From an uncultured Spirochaetaceae bacterium (GTDB taxonomy: Bacteria > Spirochaetota > Spirochaetia > Sphaerochaetales > Sphaerochaetaceae): DNA of 49,298 nucleotides. Position numbers and translations under genes: made by a program. Below the pieces are notes generated by a model. The model was given only the letters and a program-made list of their open reading frames with translations. It made no database searches and was not told the DNA's origin. Below are positions 14,172 through 22,474 of this stretch, piece after piece; within the stretch, counting starts at the first letter, position 1, and each line of letters starts with the position of its first letter. Location of the stretch: positions 1 to 49,298 of the forward strand of contig CALXYL010000017.1 of NCBI GenBank assembly GCA_944392985.1, in the 5' to 3' direction.

Positions 14172-14768
14172 TCATCCGATGATAACGGCCCCCAGTGCCC
14201 TCATGATATCCATAGCCTGTGCAGGATCAACCGAAGCACCCCTGAGTTCCCTAAGATCCTCGGAAAGGATGATGCCATCCAGCTGTGACTGCAGAAGCGA
14301 AAGCCCTGCAAGCGGTGTCCCCCTGAACGATACGCGGCAGAGAGCGGAGGAGACAAGGCTGCTATCCCTGTGCTGGACAGACGAGAATGAGGAACCTGAG
14401 AAATCGCAGGAGACAGCGGAGAAAGAGCGGAATGAGGAGGAATCAAAGGAGGAATAGAGCGCAGTGCAGTCCTTCATGCTGACCTTCTTCAGCCGGGAAG
14501 AGCGGAACAAGGTCCCTGTCAGCCTCGAATGGCTGAAAACCACATCCGTCAGATGGCATGATGAGAGATCCACGTTGGAGAAATCACAGGAATCAAAGAC
14601 TGTATCAGAGAACGCAGTGTCTGCAAGGACAGCACCGGAGAAGGACACAGAACGGAATACAGCATGCCTCACCACAAGACCGGAAAGATCGTGTCCGGCG
14701 TAAATTGAGCCACTGTCCTCTATCCCGTCAGGATCGAGATCGGCTTCCAGTGCTTCCGAGAGCGTCAT
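14172..14768 (-). CDS. Pentapeptide-repeat protein at the end of the his operon
   Basis: The 198-residue protein is built of A/S(D/N)LxX-like pentapeptides from about residue 30 to 165, for example LSGLVVRHAVFRSVSFSGAV and DTVFDSCDFSNVDLSSCHL, which would fold as a right-handed quadrilateral beta-helix. It is rich in Ser and Phe. Its ATG overlaps the hisIE stop (ATGA), so it is cotranslated with histidine enzymes although it has no known role there. Some pentapeptide proteins mimic DNA and protect gyrase; nothing here shows that this one does. The short C-terminal tail after the repeats is unrecognised. Confidence 0.75.
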   Translation of the reverse strand: MTLSEALEADLDPDGIEDSGSIYAGHDLSGLVVRHAVFRSVSFSGAVLADTAFSDTVFDSCDFSNVDLSSCHLTDVVFSHSRLTGTLFRSSRLKKVSMKDCTALYSSFDSSSFRSFSAVSCDFSGSSFSSVQHRDSSLVSSALCRVSFRGTPLAGLSLLQSQLDGIILSEDLRELRGASVDPAQAMDIMRALGAVIIG

Positions 14769-15376
14769 CAGCGTGAATGGCGCGCCTTCAGCACATCAAT
14801 GACTTCGGCAAGGGAGCAGTTCTTCTCGGCAAGGAGCACCAGGAAATGATAGATGAGATCCGCCCCTTCTCCGAGAAAGAGATCCTTGTCATCATCCTTG
14901 GACTCGATGATGAGCTCAACAGCCTCCTCCCCGACCTTCTGCGCGATCCTATTCAGACCACGTGAGAAGAGATGGTTTGTATATGACCCCTCGACTGGGT
15001 TGTCGCGCCTGTCATTGATGACCGACTCAAGGTAGAAGAGGAATTCAGGGGAAGAGACCTCGGTAGGCTGGTTGTCCTCACCAAAGCAGGTATCGGCACC
15101 TGTGTGGCAGACCGGCCCGGACGGGATAGCCTTCACAAGCAGCGTATCCCCATCGCAGTCGGCAAGTATCTCCCTCACCTGCAGGAAATTGCCGCTCGTC
15201 TCCCCTTTTGTCCAGATACGGCCTCTCGATCGAGAGAAGAATGTCACAAGCCCTCTGTCGAGCGTCAGCTTGTACGCCTCCTCATTCATGTAGCCGAGCA
15301 TCAGGACCTTCCTGGTCACCGCATCCTGGACGATAGCAGGCACGAGCCCGCCGCCTTTAGCGAAATCTATTGTCAT
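14768..15376 (-). CDS. hisIE: Bifunctional HisIE
   Basis: The 202-residue fusion carries out steps two and three of histidine synthesis: hydrolysis of phosphoribosyl-ATP to phosphoribosyl-AMP (HisE, C-terminal) and ring opening (HisI, N-terminal). HisI motifs are [28 protein letters not shown] and [10 protein letters not shown] with Zn ligands, plus CHTGADTCF. HisE motifs are [25 protein letters not shown] and [14 protein letters not shown]. Ten bases after hisF and overlapping the pentapeptide gene, it is part of the his operon. Confidence 0.95.
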
Positions 15377-15386
15377 CTTCCCCTCT

Positions 15387-16151
15387 CTACTGCCTTACAG
15401 GTATCCCAGATGTCCTGAGATACGCTTTAAGCTCCGGGATACCGATCTCCCGGAAATGGAAAACCGAAGCGGCCAGCGCTGCGTCAGCGCGCCCTTCCAT
15501 GAATACCGTCCGGAAATCCTCCATCTTTCCCGCCCCGCCAGAGGCTATTACGGGAATATCAATATTAGTGCTGATTATCCGGGTTAAGTCAACAGCAAAG
15601 CCATCCTTCGTTCCATCCTTATCCATAGATGTCAAAAGAATTTCCCCGGCGCCTCTTGATTCAGCTTCCCTTGCCCACGAGAGCGCATCGCGCCCTGTGG
15701 GGGTACGTCCGCCATCGACCATGACCTCATAGCCTGACGGAAGCGACGCGTTTGTCCGGGCATCCAGCGCAAGCACAACGCACTGGCTTCCGAAACGACC
15801 TGCTGCCTCATCAATAAGACCAGGGCTGCGGAATGCCGCGGAGTTGATGGAGATCTTGTCAGCGCCTGCAGAGAGGATGTTCTCCACATCCCCGACCGTG
15901 CGGATACCCCCACCGACTGTGAACGGTATCGAGATGCACGAGGCGGCATCACGCACCAGGGATATCATCGTACCCCTTGCCTCAACAGTTGCTGTGATAT
16001 CCAGGAATACAAGCTCATCGGCGCCATTTGAGGAGTAGTATCTCGCCAGATCAATCGCGGACCCTGCATCGCGGAGCGAAACGAAATTGACACCTTTTAC
16101 CGTGCGTCCATCCTTTACATCAAGGCATGGGATTATGCGTCTTGCAAGCAT
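15387..16151 (-). CDS. hisF: Imidazole glycerol phosphate synthase cyclase subunit HisF
   Basis: The 254-residue TIM barrel forms imidazole glycerol phosphate and AICAR from PRFAR using ammonia from HisH. It starts [23 protein letters not shown], where the Asp is catalytic, and has [38 protein letters not shown] with the second catalytic Asp, and [20 protein letters not shown] precedes the ATG, which lies inside the end of hisA (19-base overlap). Confidence 0.97.
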
Positions 16152-16858
16152 TCAGCCTCCTTCATTTCCGCAATCGTCATACGTCCCTCGTAGAAAGCCT
16201 TCCCGACAATCGCCGCCTTTACACCGATACGTGAAAGGGACACAAGATCGGACAGTGAGGATATCCCCCCGGAAGCGATGAGACAGAGATCAGGCAATGC
16301 ATCGAGAATCGTCTTGTACAGCCCAAGCGAAGGGCCGGAAAGCATCCCGTCACGAGCGATGTCAGTGACAGCCGCCCTTCTGATGCCATTCTCAAGGAAA
16401 CGCTGTATGAAAGGGATGACACTTATGTCCGTATCCTCCATCCAGCCAGAGACCGCGATGCGGCCATCACGGGCATCCGCAGAAAGAATTATCCTATTAT
16501 TGAATTTTTCATTCCAAATAAGGACTGATTCTGGATTCTTGACAGCTATAGAACCGACATTCACAGCACTGGCTCCAGCATCGAACGCGCGCCTGCAGTC
16601 CTCCTCCGTCCTTATACCGCCGCCGAAATCCACCTCAAGGCGCGTTTCAGAGGCGATACGTTCCAGAACATCCAGATTGCTGCCCCGTCCTGCAGCCCCG
16701 TCAAGATCCACCAGGTGAAGTGACGTAAGCCCTCCATCCTCGAACATCTTCGCCGCATCAAGCGGAGAGAGGCCATAGGATGAGACACTGCCGTAATCCC
16801 CTTCGCTGAGCCTCACGAGCTTCCCTTTGATGATATCGATCGCAGGAACAACCCTCAT
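16133..16858 (-). CDS. hisA: ProFAR isomerase HisA
   Basis: The 241-residue half-barrel-duplicated enzyme isomerises ProFAR to PRFAR. It shows [15 protein letters not shown] with the catalytic Asp, [28 protein letters not shown] with the second catalytic Asp, and [13 protein letters not shown]. The start overlaps the hisH stop by four bases. It is about the usual family length. Confidence 0.97.
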
Positions 16859-17448
16859 TGCCGTCCCTCCAGGAATGCACGGAGGATACGCTCCCCCGCG
16901 TCAGCGCTCTTCTCCGGATGGAACTGCACACCGAGGAAGTTGTCCTTTTCAAGAGCCGCTGAGAATGCTATCCCATCATACTCCGCAACAGCGGACGTGA
17001 AAGGCGTCAGCGGAACATAGTAGGAATGGACGAAATACACATACTCACCTTCCCCTGTATCCCGGAAAAGCGGCCCTGAAAGATCGGTGATCGTATTCCA
17101 GCCGACATGGGGGATCTTGTATCCCCTGCCTTTCGGGAAGAGAGTGACACGCTCGGGGAAGATGCCAAGGCACTCCGTGTTGCCTTCCTCCGAGGATGAG
17201 CACATGAGCTGCATTCCAAGGCAGATGCCGAGAAATGGCTGCTTCAGGCTCCTTATCACATCCGAGAGTCCATGCGAATCGAGGTACGCCATCGCGCTGG
17301 ATGCTTCTCCGACACCGGGGAAGATCACCTTGTCGGCACTGCGTATCGCCTCAGGATCATCAGTCAGCACCGCTTTGCATCCAAGGCGGGAAAGCGCGTT
17401 CATCACGGAAAGCACATTCCCAGCGCCGTATCTGATCACAGCAATCAT
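16855..17448 (-). CDS. hisH: Imidazole glycerol phosphate synthase glutaminase subunit HisH
   Basis: The 197-residue class I glutaminase feeds ammonia to HisF. The catalytic Cys is in FLGICLGMQLM and the His and Glu in GVQFHPEKS, with PGVGEASSAM as the oxyanion strand region. It overlaps hisB and hisA by four bases on each side, showing tight coupling in the operon. Confidence 0.97.
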   Translation of the reverse strand: MIAVIRYGAGNVLSVMNALSRLGCKAVLTDDPEAIRSADKVIFPGVGEASSAMAYLDSHGLSDVIRSLKQPFLGICLGMQLMCSSSEEGNTECLGIFPERVTLFPKGRGYKIPHVGWNTITDLSGPLFRDTGEGEYVYFVHSYYVPLTPFTSAVAEYDGIAFSAALEKDNFLGVQFHPEKSADAGERILRAFLEGRQ

Positions 17449-18581
17449 AGAACCCCCTTCGTGCTCGCCACTCGCGCGTCTCCGGGAATTCTCCTGACAG
17501 CTTTTCTCATCGCCCTGGCAAACGCCTTGAACAGCGCCTCAGCAGTGTGGTGGCTGTCCCCATCAGGCAGCGCGGATAGATAGAGGTTGCAGCCTGCTGC
17601 AGCTGTGAATGAACGGAAGAAGTGCCGAACAAGCTCGGTCGGGAAATCCCCGATCCGGTCCATCGTGAATGAGGCATCCCACATCAGCTCAGGACGCCCG
17701 GAGAAATCGATGGCGGCAGAAGCCACCGTATCATCCATCGTAACCATCTCAAAGCCATAGCGTTCGATTCCCCTCTTATCCCCGAGAGCCTTCCTTACCG
17801 CCTCACCCAGAGCAAGCGCTGTATCCTCCGTGGTGTGATGGAAATCAACGAATGTATCGCCATGCACTTCCCCATGTGCATCGATACGGGAATGCCTTAC
17901 CACCTGGTCCAGCATATGATCCAGGAATCCTATCCCTGTCACAATCCTGCCTTCCCCCGTTCCATCAAGGTCTACAGAGAGCGAGATATCAGTCTCCTTC
18001 GTCCTTCTACCAACATCGGCTGAGCGGTGAAGCAGCGAGCCGTCATCGACAAGATATGATGCGATATCAAGCCAGCTTGAGCACTTCATCGCAATGACGG
18101 AGGCAAGATCGTCGGGGATATCCATTTTGTCATCGCTGAGAAGGAAGCCCCGGCATCCCATGCTCCTTGCAAGCATCATATCAGTCAGCCTGTCACCGAT
18201 CATGAACGAATGCTCCATATCGTAATCATCACTCCGATACCGGTCGATCATGGCAGTCCCGGGTTTGCGCGTCGAAAGCCCATCCTCCGGCATCGAGAGG
18301 TCGATCAGGATCTCGTCAAAGACGATGCCCTCACCGCTGAGGGTGCTGAATATCCTCTCCGCAGGCCCGGCAAATCCATCATAGGTGAATGCCCGCGTCC
18401 CGACGCCATCCTGGTTCGAGACCATGACAAGAAGATAATCAGTCCTGCTGACTATCTCTCCAAGGGCACGGAACACATATGGGATGTACTCTATACGATC
18501 ATATGAGTCGACCTGCTGCTCACGTACGATCACGCCATCGCGATCGATGAAAAGAACCTTCTTCCTATCCTTCCAAGACAT
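17445..18581 (-). CDS. hisB: Bifunctional HisB
   Basis: The 378-residue fusion has an N-terminal HAD phosphatase (VLFIDRDGVIVREQ, VMVSNQDGVGT, FMIGDRLTDMMLARS) for histidinol phosphate and a C-terminal imidazole glycerol phosphate dehydratase from about residue 190 (TGIGFLDHMLDQVVRHS, DFHHTTEDTALALGEAV, HFFRSFTAAAGCNLYL, HHTAEALFKAFARA) with the metal-binding His clusters. The two-domain form is best known from enterobacteria; many bacteria encode the activities separately. It overlaps hisC by 17 bases and hisH by four. Confidence 0.96.
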   Translation of the reverse strand: MSWKDRKKVLFIDRDGVIVREQQVDSYDRIEYIPYVFRALGEIVSRTDYLLVMVSNQDGVGTRAFTYDGFAGPAERIFSTLSGEGIVFDEILIDLSMPEDGLSTRKPGTAMIDRYRSDDYDMEHSFMIGDRLTDMMLARSMGCRGFLLSDDKMDIPDDLASVIAMKCSSWLDIASYLVDDGSLLHRSADVGRRTKETDISLSVDLDGTGEGRIVTGIGFLDHMLDQVVRHSRIDAHGEVHGDTFVDFHHTTEDTALALGEAVRKALGDKRGIERYGFEMVTMDDTVASAAIDFSGRPELMWDASFTMDRIGDFPTELVRHFFRSFTAAAGCNLYLSALPDGDSHHTAEALFKAFARAMRKAVRRIPGDARVASTKGVL

Positions 18582-19599
18582 CCAACGCCTCCTTCAGGGC
18601 AGTCATCTCACTCTCTGATCCGATCGTGATCCGGATCGTATTCTCCAGCAGAGGCTCGGACGAGCGCAAACGGACGATAATACCCTTTCCAACCAGGTAA
18701 TCATAGAGGGAACGTGCGTCAGTGACACGCATCAGAATGAAATTCGCCTCCGATGGAAGAACTTCCCTGACAAACGGTAACCCTGATAGATATGCAGAGA
18801 ATTCCTTCCTACGGGCTATCGTTTCAGCTATCCGGCTCCTGACACCCTCAATGTCAGAAAGCGCCTCCATCGCAGCTTCCTGATCGGGTCCGGAGACATT
18901 GTATGGCGGCTTTGCCCTCATGAATGCCTCCTGAACGGCACGGCTGGAGACAAGTATCCCGATTCTCGCCCCGGCAGCAGCATAGGCCTTGGAGAGAGTG
19001 CGAAGCACTGCGACACGCTCATTTTCCGCGATAAGGGAAACTGCGGAAGCAAAACCCTCGGAGAAATCTGCGTATGCCTCATCCACCACTGTCATTCCCT
19101 TATTCACCTCAGCTATCTTCCTGATCACAGAAAGCGGATAGATGCGTCCCGTAGGATTGTTAGGGGAGCATATGAACACGATCTTCGGCTTCTCCTTCTC
19201 GATGGCGCTGAGCATTGATTGGGTATCCAGATCAAGCGATGGCGTGAGAGGCACATCAATGACGGATACTCCTGAGACAGAGGCAAAGACCGAGTATGTG
19301 CCATAGGTTGGCCGTTCAATCATGATCCTGTCATGTCCGGGAGAACAGAACATCCTGATGAGCATGTCGATGATCTCATCGGAGCCATTGCCGATCGCCG
19401 TTGAATCGAAAGGAAGTCCCATGACGCTTTCGATCCTCAGCCGCAGCTCGCGGCAAAGCGGATCGGGATAGCGGCAGGATCTGCCTGTCCAGCTTTCATT
19501 GGCATCGAGGAACACACCAGCACTCCCCGAGAACTCGCTTCGCGCACTGCTATAAGGTACAAGATCCCTGATCCAGGGATTGAGAAGCTCAGATACCAT
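18565..19599 (-). CDS. hisC: Histidinol-phosphate aminotransferase HisC
   Basis: The 344-residue PLP enzyme converts imidazole acetol phosphate to histidinol phosphate. Motifs include GNGSDEIIDML, CSPNNPTGRIYPL with the Asn that contacts the cofactor, VVDEAYADFSEGF, and RTLSKAYAAAGARIGIL with the Schiff-base Lys. The ATG at 19599 follows GAGG and sits inside the end of hisD; a TTG two codons earlier is possible. It overlaps hisB by 17 bases. Confidence 0.96.
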   Translation of the reverse strand: MVSELLNPWIRDLVPYSSARSEFSGSAGVFLDANESWTGRSCRYPDPLCRELRLRIESVMGLPFDSTAIGNGSDEIIDMLIRMFCSPGHDRIMIERPTYGTYSVFASVSGVSVIDVPLTPSLDLDTQSMLSAIEKEKPKIVFICSPNNPTGRIYPLSVIRKIAEVNKGMTVVDEAYADFSEGFASAVSLIAENERVAVLRTLSKAYAAAGARIGILVSSRAVQEAFMRAKPPYNVSGPDQEAAMEALSDIEGVRSRIAETIARRKEFSAYLSGLPFVREVLPSEANFILMRVTDARSLYDYLVGKGIIVRLRSSEPLLENTIRITIGSESEMTALKEALDVLEG

Positions 19600-20875
19600 C
19601 ACCAACCCTCACTTTCACAGCATAGCTATGGGCCGCAAGCCCTTCAGCTTCAGCCATTGTCATGATGGTCCTTCCGAGATTGGCAAGACCATGTCCTGTT
19701 ATCCTCTGGAATGTGATCTTCTTCAGGAACGAGTCCAGTGAGACTCCCGACGAGGAGCGCGCCCAGCCGGATGTCGGCAGGGTGTGGTTCGTGCCTGACG
19801 CATAGTCACCGGCAGACTCCGGGGTATATGGGCCAACGAAAACCGAGCCCGCATTCTCCACCCTTTCTGCAAGCTCATCGGCATTCGCTGTGGAAAGGAT
19901 GAGATGCTCCGGGGCATATGCGTTGACGGCATCGATCAAGGCATCGTCGGAGTGGAATGGAAATGCAAAGGAATGGGAAAGCGATGGAAGCATGTACTCA
20001 TGCCTTCCGATGAGTGCAAGCTCCTCCCCGATGGCCTTCTCGACCGCGCTGTGGATGGATGCCGCCTCTGCGAGGCTATCAGATCTGATCAGGAGCATTG
20101 CCTGGCTGTCAGGGCCATGCTCCGCCTGTGAAAGGAGATCAGCAGCCGCGTAGGAGGGATCTGAAGAGCGATCAATGACAACCATCACCTCTGAAGGCCC
20201 TGCAAGCATATCGATGGCTGTATCGGAGGAGACCTGGCGCTTCGCTTCCGTGACGTAGCTGTTCCCCGGACCGAATATCTTATCACGCCGCGGCACGCTC
20301 TCAGTGCCATAGGCGAAAGCCGCGATCGCCTGCGCACCACCGACCTTCAGGACTTTCCCCACACCGGCAGATGAGGCGGCGTAGAGTATCGCGGGGCTGA
20401 CAACGCCGTTCTTCGCTGGCGTTGCTAGAATGATATCCTGGCATCCCGCCACGACAGCTGGTATGGCGAGCATGAGGACAGTGGAGAAAAGCGGCGCTGT
20501 TCCACCTGGCACATAGAGCCCGACATGCCTTATCGGTACGACACGGCGGGAGCATACAACGCCTTCCTCCGTCTCAACGCACTCTTCCTGGGGCCTCTCC
20601 GCCTCATGGAAACACCTTATATTCGCCCCCGCATGCCTGATCGCCTCCTTAAGATCCTCAGGGACGGCCGCCTCAGCCTCCTCGAATTCACGCTCGGAGA
20701 CAAAGAGGGAATCCAGTGATGATCCATCGAAGCGCAGGGCGTAATCACGAAGTGCCTCATCGCCCCTCTTGCGGACATCGCTGACAATAGAGCGGACAGC
20801 CTCAGTTATATCATCCCGTCCTTCCGCAGGACGTTTCAGAAGAGAATCATCATACTCAGAAAACCGCAGATACAT
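19589..20875 (-). CDS. hisD: Histidinol dehydrogenase HisD
   Basis: The 428-residue Zn enzyme oxidises histidinol to histidine with NAD+ in two steps. It carries LYVPGGTAPLFSTVLMLAIPA, KVGGAQAIAAFAYGTESVPRRDKIFGPGN, MLAGPSEVMVV, LLSQAEHGPDSQ and APEHL, with the family's catalytic Glu-His. The ATG at 20875 follows GGAG from the last codons of hisG; a GTG at 20884 is less likely. Length is normal. Confidence 0.97.
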   Translation of the reverse strand: MYLRFSEYDDSLLKRPAEGRDDITEAVRSIVSDVRKRGDEALRDYALRFDGSSLDSLFVSEREFEEAEAAVPEDLKEAIRHAGANIRCFHEAERPQEECVETEEGVVCSRRVVPIRHVGLYVPGGTAPLFSTVLMLAIPAVVAGCQDIILATPAKNGVVSPAILYAASSAGVGKVLKVGGAQAIAAFAYGTESVPRRDKIFGPGNSYVTEAKRQVSSDTAIDMLAGPSEVMVVIDRSSDPSYAAADLLSQAEHGPDSQAMLLIRSDSLAEAASIHSAVEKAIGEELALIGRHEYMLPSLSHSFAFPFHSDDALIDAVNAYAPEHLILSTANADELAERVENAGSVFVGPYTPESAGDYASGTNHTLPTSGWARSSSGVSLDSFLKKITFQRITGHGLANLGRTIMTMAEAEGLAAHSYAVKVRVGDGI

Positions 20876-20880
20876 ACCAA

Positions 20881-21741
20881 TCACTCCGTCATCTTCTCGA
20901 TATTCATCACAAGGATGCCTTCCGCGCCAAGGCGCCTCAGCTCCTCGAATACCGCCCAGAAGCGGCCTTCATCGACTGCGGACTGCACTGAGACCCAGCC
21001 TTTATCCATCAGCGGTGTCACAGTAGGGCTCTTCATGCCGCCGATCACCCTCGCCGCCTCCGGCAGCTTCTCCTCGGGGAGATTGAAGAGAATGTACTTC
21101 TTATGGCGTGCCATCATCACAGCATCAATGCGCTCCAGCAGACGGCGGAGAAGCTCCTTCTTACCTTCATCCATATCGTCCCTCGCGATCATCACGGCAG
21201 AGGAGCGGTAGATGCACTCAACCTCATCAAGGCCATTCATCTTCAGTGTCGTCCCCGTCGAGACCAGATCTGCGATCGCATCAGCAACCCCGATGTCCAC
21301 TGTCACCTCCACAGAACCGGAAACGACGACAAGCTCCGCGCTGATACCCTTTTCCTTCAGGAGGCCACCGACAATCCTCGGATAGGATGTCGCGATCCTC
21401 TTCCCTTCAAGCGACTCGAGCCCTGTGTAGGCGAAGCCATGCGGCACTGCTATCGAAAGGCGGCAGGACGCGAAGCCAAGATCGCGCACGACTGAAAGGG
21501 GCACACCGCTCTCATCGTACTCATTGCGTCCGACAATCCCGATATCCGCAACCCCATCAGCGACGTAGCCGGGAATGTCATCATCGCGGACGAAGAGGAA
21601 CTCCAGAGGGAAGCCCGATGCCATGGCCTTCAGCACACGGCTATCCGCGTTCACATCGATTCCGCACGACCTGATGATATCAAGGCTCTTCTCCGAAAGC
21701 CTTCCGCTCTTCTGCACAGCGATACTGAGAACATCATCCAT
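20881..21741 (-). CDS. hisG: ATP phosphoribosyltransferase HisG (long form)
   Basis: HisG starts histidine synthesis by joining ATP and PRPP and is usually inhibited by histidine. From the ATG after GAAGGAGG the product has 286 residues, so it is the long form with a C-terminal ACT-like domain (about 210-286, ending in the region ILVMNIEKMTE) and needs no HisZ. Motifs: IAVQKSGRLSEKSL, YVADGVADIGIVGRNEY, the PRPP-loop area DAIADLVSTGTTLKMNGL. It is first in the his operon and just downstream of the leader ORF and hairpin described separately. Confidence 0.96.
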   Translation of the reverse strand: MDDVLSIAVQKSGRLSEKSLDIIRSCGIDVNADSRVLKAMASGFPLEFLFVRDDDIPGYVADGVADIGIVGRNEYDESGVPLSVVRDLGFASCRLSIAVPHGFAYTGLESLEGKRIATSYPRIVGGLLKEKGISAELVVVSGSVEVTVDIGVADAIADLVSTGTTLKMNGLDEVECIYRSSAVMIARDDMDEGKKELLRRLLERIDAVMMARHKKYILFNLPEEKLPEAARVIGGMKSPTVTPLMDKGWVSVQSAVDEGRFWAVFEELRRLGAEGILVMNIEKMTE

Positions 21742-21756
21742 ACTGCCTCCTTCAGG

Positions 21757-21787
21757 AAAAAGAAAAGCCTCCCGCCACTGGGAGGCC
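21757..21787 (-). terminator. Intrinsic terminator in the hisG leader (attenuator)
   Basis: On the minus strand, GCCTCCC and GGGAGGC form a seven-pair GC stem with a six-base loop, followed by TTTTCTTTTT. This is a textbook intrinsic terminator, but it lies directly before the hisG ribosome site and start, so it must be passed to express the operon. It is placed right for an attenuator. Its 5' arm could also pair with the GGAGGC of the hisG ribosome site. Confidence 0.8.
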
Positions 21788-21802
21788 ATTATCATAATGA
21801 AC

Positions 21803-21841
21803 CCATCATGGCGCCGTCATGATACAAGCACTGCATGATGG
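21803..21841 (-). promoter_or_regulatory. Competing hairpins of the his leader
   Basis: CCATCATG (21834-21841), which covers the His codons, is the exact complement of CATGATGG (21803-21810). The latter can instead pair by its CATGAT with ATCATG at 21818-21823. The strand just below, GCCAT near 21812, can pair with ATGGC at the start of the terminator stem (near 21786-21790). These mutually exclusive pairings match a pause/antiterminator/terminator layout. Energies were not computed. Confidence 0.55.
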
Positions 21842-21864
21842 ATATGCACGATCTTCCTTTCCAT
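21817..21864 (-). CDS. hisL: Candidate his leader peptide
   Basis: A 15-codon ORF, MERKIVHIHHAVLVS, ends 30 bases before the terminator hairpin. Three of its residues are His, in the run His-Ile-His-His. A shorter version starting at GTG (21849) gives MHIHHAVLVS and has AAGGAAG just before it, a better ribosome site than the ATG has. Histidine leader peptides work by ribosome stalling at His codons when charged tRNA-His is scarce, which opens the antiterminator. The His run is shorter than the seven in E. coli hisL. Confidence 0.65.
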   Translation of the reverse strand: MERKIVHIHHAVLVS

Positions 21865-21895
21865 ATCGAAACGGTACAGGAAGGAAACGGTATAG

Positions 21896-22474
21896 TCAAC
21901 TCTCAAGACGCTTCTCCAGCTCTTTTCTCAGCCTTCTTGCATAGCACGAGGAACTGATCGCGCCATAGATCATGACAACACCCGAAGCGAAGAGGACAGC
22001 CGCAACGATCGTCAGAAGCACTGTCGGCAGGATATTCGGGAAGATGAAGAGTATGAGCGCAAAGACAAAGGAGAGGACAGTCTCAAGTCCGACGGAGCCG
22101 GAAGGGATGTCGAGACGGGAAAGCCAGATAAGATCGACAAGGTCAACGATTCCCGTAAGGAGGAATGCTGCCGCCGCGATGTATACAAGGAACCTGAGTA
22201 TGGCTCCCGGGAAAGCAAGGGCAACAAGCAGGATAACAAGCCCCACAACCGCATCAGCAAGTCCCTTCCCAAGAAGCATGCCGGAAAGCGAGGATCCGAT
22301 GCCTTCTCCTATCCGATGCCTCATCAGCAGTGTTCTGAATCCATCGAATGCAAGGTATAGGCCAAAGGCCGCGACGACGACGGAGACGATGCTCTCAGGA
22401 GGGCTCAGGAGGATATAGAGTCCGAGGGATATCAGAAGCAACGCGGAAATGATCATAGGAATATATCTTTTCAT
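21896..22474 (-). CDS. HdeD/DUF308-like membrane protein
   Basis: From MKRYIPM the 192-residue protein has about six hydrophobic segments arranged in pairs (IISALLLISLGLYILL, SVVVAAFGLYLAFDGF, VVGLVILLVALAFPG, FLVYIAAAAFLLTGIVDL, LSFVFALILFIFPNIL, VLLTIVAAVLFASGVVMIYG), then a basic tail RRLRKELEKRLES. The repeated pattern GxY/LxF.G fits the DUF308/HdeD family, linked to acid or stress tolerance in enterobacteria; role here unknown. It lies upstream of the his leader on the same strand and diverges from cysE. The ribosome site is weak, so the start is uncertain. Confidence 0.75.
   Translation of the reverse strand: MKRYIPMIISALLLISLGLYILLSPPESIVSVVVAAFGLYLAFDGFRTLLMRHRIGEGIGSSLSGMLLGKGLADAVVGLVILLVALAFPGAILRFLVYIAAAAFLLTGIVDLVDLIWLSRLDIPSGSVGLETVLSFVFALILFIFPNILPTVLLTIVAAVLFASGVVMIYGAISSSCYARRLRKELEKRLES

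Follow-up and report, generated by a model that had tools for sequence, protein, structure and literature searches.

The his operon of this uncultured spirochaete is very probably controlled by a ribosome-mediated transcription attenuator, in which a short histidine-rich leader ORF, two mutually exclusive RNA pairings and an intrinsic terminator precede hisG. As far as we could find, a his attenuator is new to the Spirochaetota, and it is of a well-known kind; its main distinguishing feature is the predicted leaderless leader peptide, and the combination of a His attenuator with such a peptide appears to be unreported in this phylum. The window, that is, the whole stretch of 49,298 nucleotides analysed here, is contig 17 of a 1.96 Mb genome (phylum Spirochaetota), which has uncultured Spirochaetales and Candidatus Ornithospirochaeta stercoravium as its named close relatives. 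It carries a complete his operon on the minus strand, in the order hisG-D-C-B-H-A-F-IE, running from 21741 to 14768 and recognised by NCBIfam matches (Table 1). We place the start of hisG at ATG 21741, where the alignment to relatives begins, and for the same reason dropped the start of the longest frame, at ATG 21795. That ATG lies upstream of the terminator, and an automatic caller could wrongly annotate it as the hisG start.

A DUF308 gene on the same strand lies upstream of hisG, from which it is separated by 154 bases. Read along the minus strand, the order of elements is TTGACT, TACCGT, leader ORF, region 2, terminator with its T run, hisG ribosome site and hisG start, and the terminator thus sits between the leader ORF and the first structural gene. 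The leader ORF has His at codons 7, 9 and 10, in a stretch that reads CAT ATC CAT CAT. Region 1, CCATCATG, which overlaps these codons, forms a perfect 8-bp pair with CATGATGG (21810-21803) inside region 2, and region 2 begins 3 nt after the leader stop codon. Alternatively, CGCCA..TGGG of region 2 pairs with region 3, CCCAGTGGCG. The original prediction had placed a leader peptide with His codons, these two pairings and a terminator in front of hisG, in a spirochaete-like operon; all of its parts were found at the minus-strand coordinates that it gave, and its assignment to spirochaetes is correct. It lacked the promoter and the leaderless start predicted here.

Table 1. Coordinates of the his operon and of its leader region in the window
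Feature	Positions	Strand	Basis
-35 element TTGACT, overlapping stop codon of DUF308 gene	21894..21899	-	sequence, pattern match, relatives
-10 element TACCGT, 17-nt spacer, 6 nt before leader ATG	21871..21876	-	relatives' spacing
Leader peptide ORF, ATG...TGA, 15 codons, MERKIVHIHHAVLVS	21817..21864	-	sequence and relatives
Region 1, CCATCATG, overlapping His codons	21834..21841	-	sequence, folding, swap test
Region 2, CGCCATGATGGG	21802..21813	-	near-invariant in main clade of genus; co-variation with regions 1 and 3 among lineages
Region 3, CCCAGTGGCG, loop and adjoining end of the terminator 5' arm; pairs with region 2 as antiterminator	21773..21782	-	swap test
Intrinsic terminator hairpin, GGCCTCCC-AGTGGC-GGGAGGCT	21766..21787	-	terminator in 50/50 leaders
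T run, TTTTCTTTTT	21757..21766	-	sequence
Shine-Dalgarno of hisG, AAGGAGG	21746..21752	-	sequence
hisG, long-type ATP phosphoribosyltransferase with C-terminal domain	20881..21741	-	TIGR00070 and TIGR03455 above cut-off
Rest of operon, hisD to hisIE	14768..20884	-	NCBIfam matches
hisD	19589-20884	-	NCBIfam match
hisC	18565-19605	-	NCBIfam match
hisB (bifunctional)	17445-18581	-	NCBIfam match
hisH	16855-17448	-	NCBIfam match
hisA	16133-16858	-	NCBIfam match
hisF	15387-16151	-	NCBIfam match
hisIE	14768-15376	-	NCBIfam match

When the 154-base intergenic region was subjected to 20,000 dinucleotide shuffles, a His-rich leader ORF (ATG start, 8-40 codons, three His in four codons) arose in 36, a terminator equal to the native one in 26, and the two together in none. 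None of 200 shuffles folds as well as the leader RNA, with z -3.8 over 111 nt and z -4.4 over 165 nt. Neither at its gathering score nor with E values allowed up to 10 did Rfam return anything credible in the window or in the loci of 13 relatives, and the RF00514 His_leader covariance model gave no match to the leader at that score.

The comparison set consisted of the 100 nearest genomes together with the genome itself, of which 52 carry a long-type hisG at no less than 53% identity, the others having a distant short-type hisG, a broken or distant copy (G079) or no hisG. The leader stands before hisG in 50 of these 52 genomes, which represent 12 genera and 5 families of the class. Each of the 50 leaders contains, upstream of hisG, a short ORF with 2-6 His codons (the peptides MERAWRHHHCLSES, MRKIAHHHHLLS and MNSLFAHHHHHHILTL are examples) and an intrinsic terminator with a T run. 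The His codons are retained while the flanking residues of the peptide drift, the position of the stop is also conserved, and the His ORF, the promoter and region 2 are kept even where the sequence upstream differs. A class-wide pattern search added 7 genomes with leader, terminator and hisG in the same order; they are no evidence on promoter spacing, because the search pattern required that spacing. Among genomes of the family that belong to other genera, 50 of 67 matched the leader pattern and 6 of 67 its reverse; some of the matches are due to chance. The conserved His codons and stems on whose presence in relatives the original prediction had staked itself are there, and its reading as his/trp-type attenuation is borne out by the conservation of His codons, stop position, exclusive pairings and terminator and by the co-variation of region 2 across genera.

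In two genomes of the same genus (loci L022 and L027) hisG adjoins a membrane-protein gene and has neither promoter nor leader; this absence is a natural loss. Both have a small hairpin just before hisG, beside the ribosome site (G025:C11:59415-59430 and G018:C8:44469-44484), with an identical loop, TGCTAGAGATTAGAAT, and a stem altered on both sides (GGAGG/CCTCC versus AAAGG/CCTTT). The loop is absent from the other 46 genomes of the genus.

Region 2 reads GCCATGATGGG in most of the genus, its partners being CCATCAT (the His codons) or CCCAnTGGC (the terminator). In other clades region 2 and partner are altered jointly, as in CCAGGAgAGG with CCTTCCTGG (L030), CCAGAacAGG with CCTtTCTGG (L036) and ATGAAGTGCG with CGCATTTCAT (L045). 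Pair counts were not drawn from the general MAFFT alignment, because it mixes two terminator registers; the pairings were put to a swap test, with 50,000 permutations of pairing partners among 19 lineages, which were picked by hand because automatic identity clustering merged nearly all leaders. Regions 2 and 3 paired with a mean of -15.9 kcal/mol with their own partner against -11.7 when swapped, and none of the 50,000 permutations was as good: these regions have co-evolved. For regions 1 and 2 the values were -12.65 and -11.08 kcal/mol, with 87 of 50,000 permutations as good, a weaker co-variation that is expected because the His codons constrain one side. Regions 1 and 3, the control pair that should not pair, gave no effect (27,490 of 50,000).

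In 48 of the 50 leaders TTGAC precedes the ATG by 35-37 nt (28-45 allowed), and in 47 of those 48 a -10-like hexamer is found 6-7 nt before the ATG, with a 17- or 18-nt spacer likewise in 47 of 48. Sigma-70-type promoters start about 7 bases past the -10 element, which here is the A of the ATG. This spacing predicts that transcription begins on the A of the ATG, and that the leader peptide is leaderless, in 48 of the 50 leaders; in L039, which has the ribosome site AGGAGG, and in L053 the ATG is further from the promoter, and these two are not leaderless by this reading. The genome itself holds 21 such promoter-ATG arrangements (loci L150-L170), whereas the reversed control yields 1. Of the 21, 11 open frames of more than 100 aa, and some are recognisable by sequence, with likenesses to DAHP synthase, RecO and endonuclease IV and to a NifS-like protein among the examples; leaderless starts therefore seem ordinary in this organism. 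A TrpR-family protein (L163) itself has a predicted leaderless start. No credible trp attenuator emerged when the genus was searched for a tryptophan counterpart of the leaderless pattern.

That a ribosome pausing on His codons decides transcription is a textbook principle of E. coli. From the anatomy described here, and from the positions of the His codons and the stop relative to the helices, we infer where transcription starts, that the leader ORF is translated and that the operon responds to histidine. Transcription would begin on or beside the first base of the leader ATG, leaving a bare 5' end for a ribosome to load on. With His-tRNA scarce, the ribosome would stall on the His codons and cover region 1, leaving region 2 to pair with region 3 as an antiterminator, and the operon would be transcribed. 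With His-tRNA plentiful, it would reach the stop codon and mask region 2, and the terminator would form (21787-21757). If no ribosome were loaded, the pairing of regions 1 and 2 would form, and the terminator would again follow.

These steps agree with a nascent-RNA model, a calculation that takes the RNA before the terminator 3' arm is made and assumes a ribosome footprint. Its expected number of pairs between regions 2 and 3 was 13.0 with the ribosome on a His codon, 3.3 with the ribosome at the stop and 4.0 with none (P < 1e-8), the direction being the same in nearly all leaders: within this folding model, a ribosome on the His codons frees region 2 and one at the stop masks it. For E. coli hisL the same model gave about 12, 1.6 and 0.9 expected pairs in these three states. 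Shuffling region 2 of the spirochaete leaders lowered the value with the ribosome on His from 13.9 to 7.1. In the window's own leader 5.8 expected pairs remain with the ribosome at the stop, and its modelled off state may therefore leak, and L005, L025 and L049 show little difference between ribosome states. In the 11 leaders computed, the terminator is favoured in the complete RNA wherever the ribosome stands, so that the switch must be kinetic. The his attenuation switch of E. coli is likewise assumed to be kinetic. Folding of the full leader under a ribosome mask was dropped as a test of the switch; it did not discriminate, as the finished terminator always wins.

Other explanations of the element can be weighed against these results. 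Lying between two genes of one strand, a terminator could belong to the first of them, and the hairpins might then be nothing but the terminator of the DUF308 gene, with His codons present by chance; this is extremely unlikely in view of the His-rich ORF, promoter and region 2 conserved in 50 genomes, also with different upstream sequence, of the co-variation of both pairings, and of the failure of ORF and terminator to arise together in any of the 20,000 shuffles. Equally unlikely is a translation-independent sensing of histidine or of another signal by a T-box or a small-molecule riboswitch. T-boxes do control his genes in Firmicutes (PMC9413887), but no Rfam family reached threshold in the window or in the 13 relatives' loci, and conservation tracks the codons and the stop.

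Two further possibilities concern what the leader acts on and what else regulates the operon, and both are very unlikely, though somewhat less so than the preceding ones. The leader could sequester the hisG ribosome site and so act on translation, instead of or besides termination: GCCTCC in the 5' arm of the terminator could pair with GGAGGC at the hisG Shine-Dalgarno, and translational attenuators exist (PMC9413887). Against this stand the canonical hairpin and T run of all 50 leaders, and the end of the hairpin at least 13 bases before hisG where measured, which leaves the ribosome site free. Attenuation could also be minor and a HisR/TrpR-type repressor the main regulator, given that the genome encodes a 111-aa TrpR-family protein (L163 1537-1872, PF01371) and that HisR of Firmicutes belongs to the TrpR family (PMC9413887). 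However, the TrpR-like gene is not beside the his genes, and the HisR consensus cacTTTAnnnnnnTAAAgtg, with 3 mismatches allowed, occurs nowhere in the window, which is weak evidence as the spirochaete motif may differ.

A ribosome-mediated attenuator of the his operon has several counterparts. His attenuators are known from gammaproteobacteria, and comparative analysis has added three lineages of Firmicutes, the Bacillus cereus group, Peptostreptococcaceae and Erysipelotrichales (PMC9413887). hisZ/hisS leaders are reported in PMC2965389, which stated in 2010 that before the Bacilli cases leader peptides were unknown outside Proteobacteria and Actinobacteria. Open-access full text on spirochaete attenuation and leader peptides yielded nothing beyond a survey of leader-ORF distances (PMC4833913), and an earlier mention is possible. 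The likenesses and differences are as follows: (i) Enterobacterial hisL (RF00514) shares the His-rich peptide, the competing pairings, the terminator before hisG and the response in the folding model. In contrast to it, the spirochaete leader belongs to another phylum, has no Rfam match, has 2-6 His codons instead of 7, pairs region 2 directly with the terminator arm and loop, and has no 5' leader before the ORF. (ii) The Firmicutes leaders have 3-5 His codons, with attenuator, antiterminator and terminator before his operons, established by comparison, as here; they belong to another phylum, and a leaderless start is not described in the available part of PMC9413887. (iii) Bacteroidota provide the nearest non-spirochaete relatives of hisG found (51-58% identity). 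A His-rich ORF often lies upstream of their hisG (L084-L147), for example MYLNLHHHHHHFIHAQKAQN in L084 and ...VHHFHHSS in Cytophagales, and flavobacteria have a hisG 5' element without an Rfam match (PMC9723704), but the promoter and terminator sequences of these elements are unlike those of the spirochaete leader. (iv) Leaderless leader peptides are known for leuL, trpL and ilvL of Streptomyces lividans (PMC8079986), which serve other amino acids in Actinobacteria, with no His leader among the eight listed there. (v) The trpL transcript of Sinorhizobium meliloti opens with the leader ATG, as predicted here; that case concerns tryptophan in an alphaproteobacterium, its leaderless start is demonstrated by experiment, and its terminated leader acts in trans (PMC7298713). 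By analogy, the terminated spirochaete leader RNA (~107 nt, 5' AUG) may persist as a small leaderless mRNA and a trans-acting riboregulator like rnTrpL, and in these spirochaetes a ribosome that loads at the 5' end may be coupled to the polymerase from the first base onward, an extension that we regard as unlikely.

Leader-peptide attenuation is thereby extended to the Spirochaetota, in uncultured gut spirochaetes, and the 57 leaders at hand provide a basis for an annotation family. The loss in two genomes, together with antiterminators that change in sequence and keep their pairing, forms a natural series for the evolution of the switch, and the predicted leaderless start is relevant to ribosome loading on leader RNAs.
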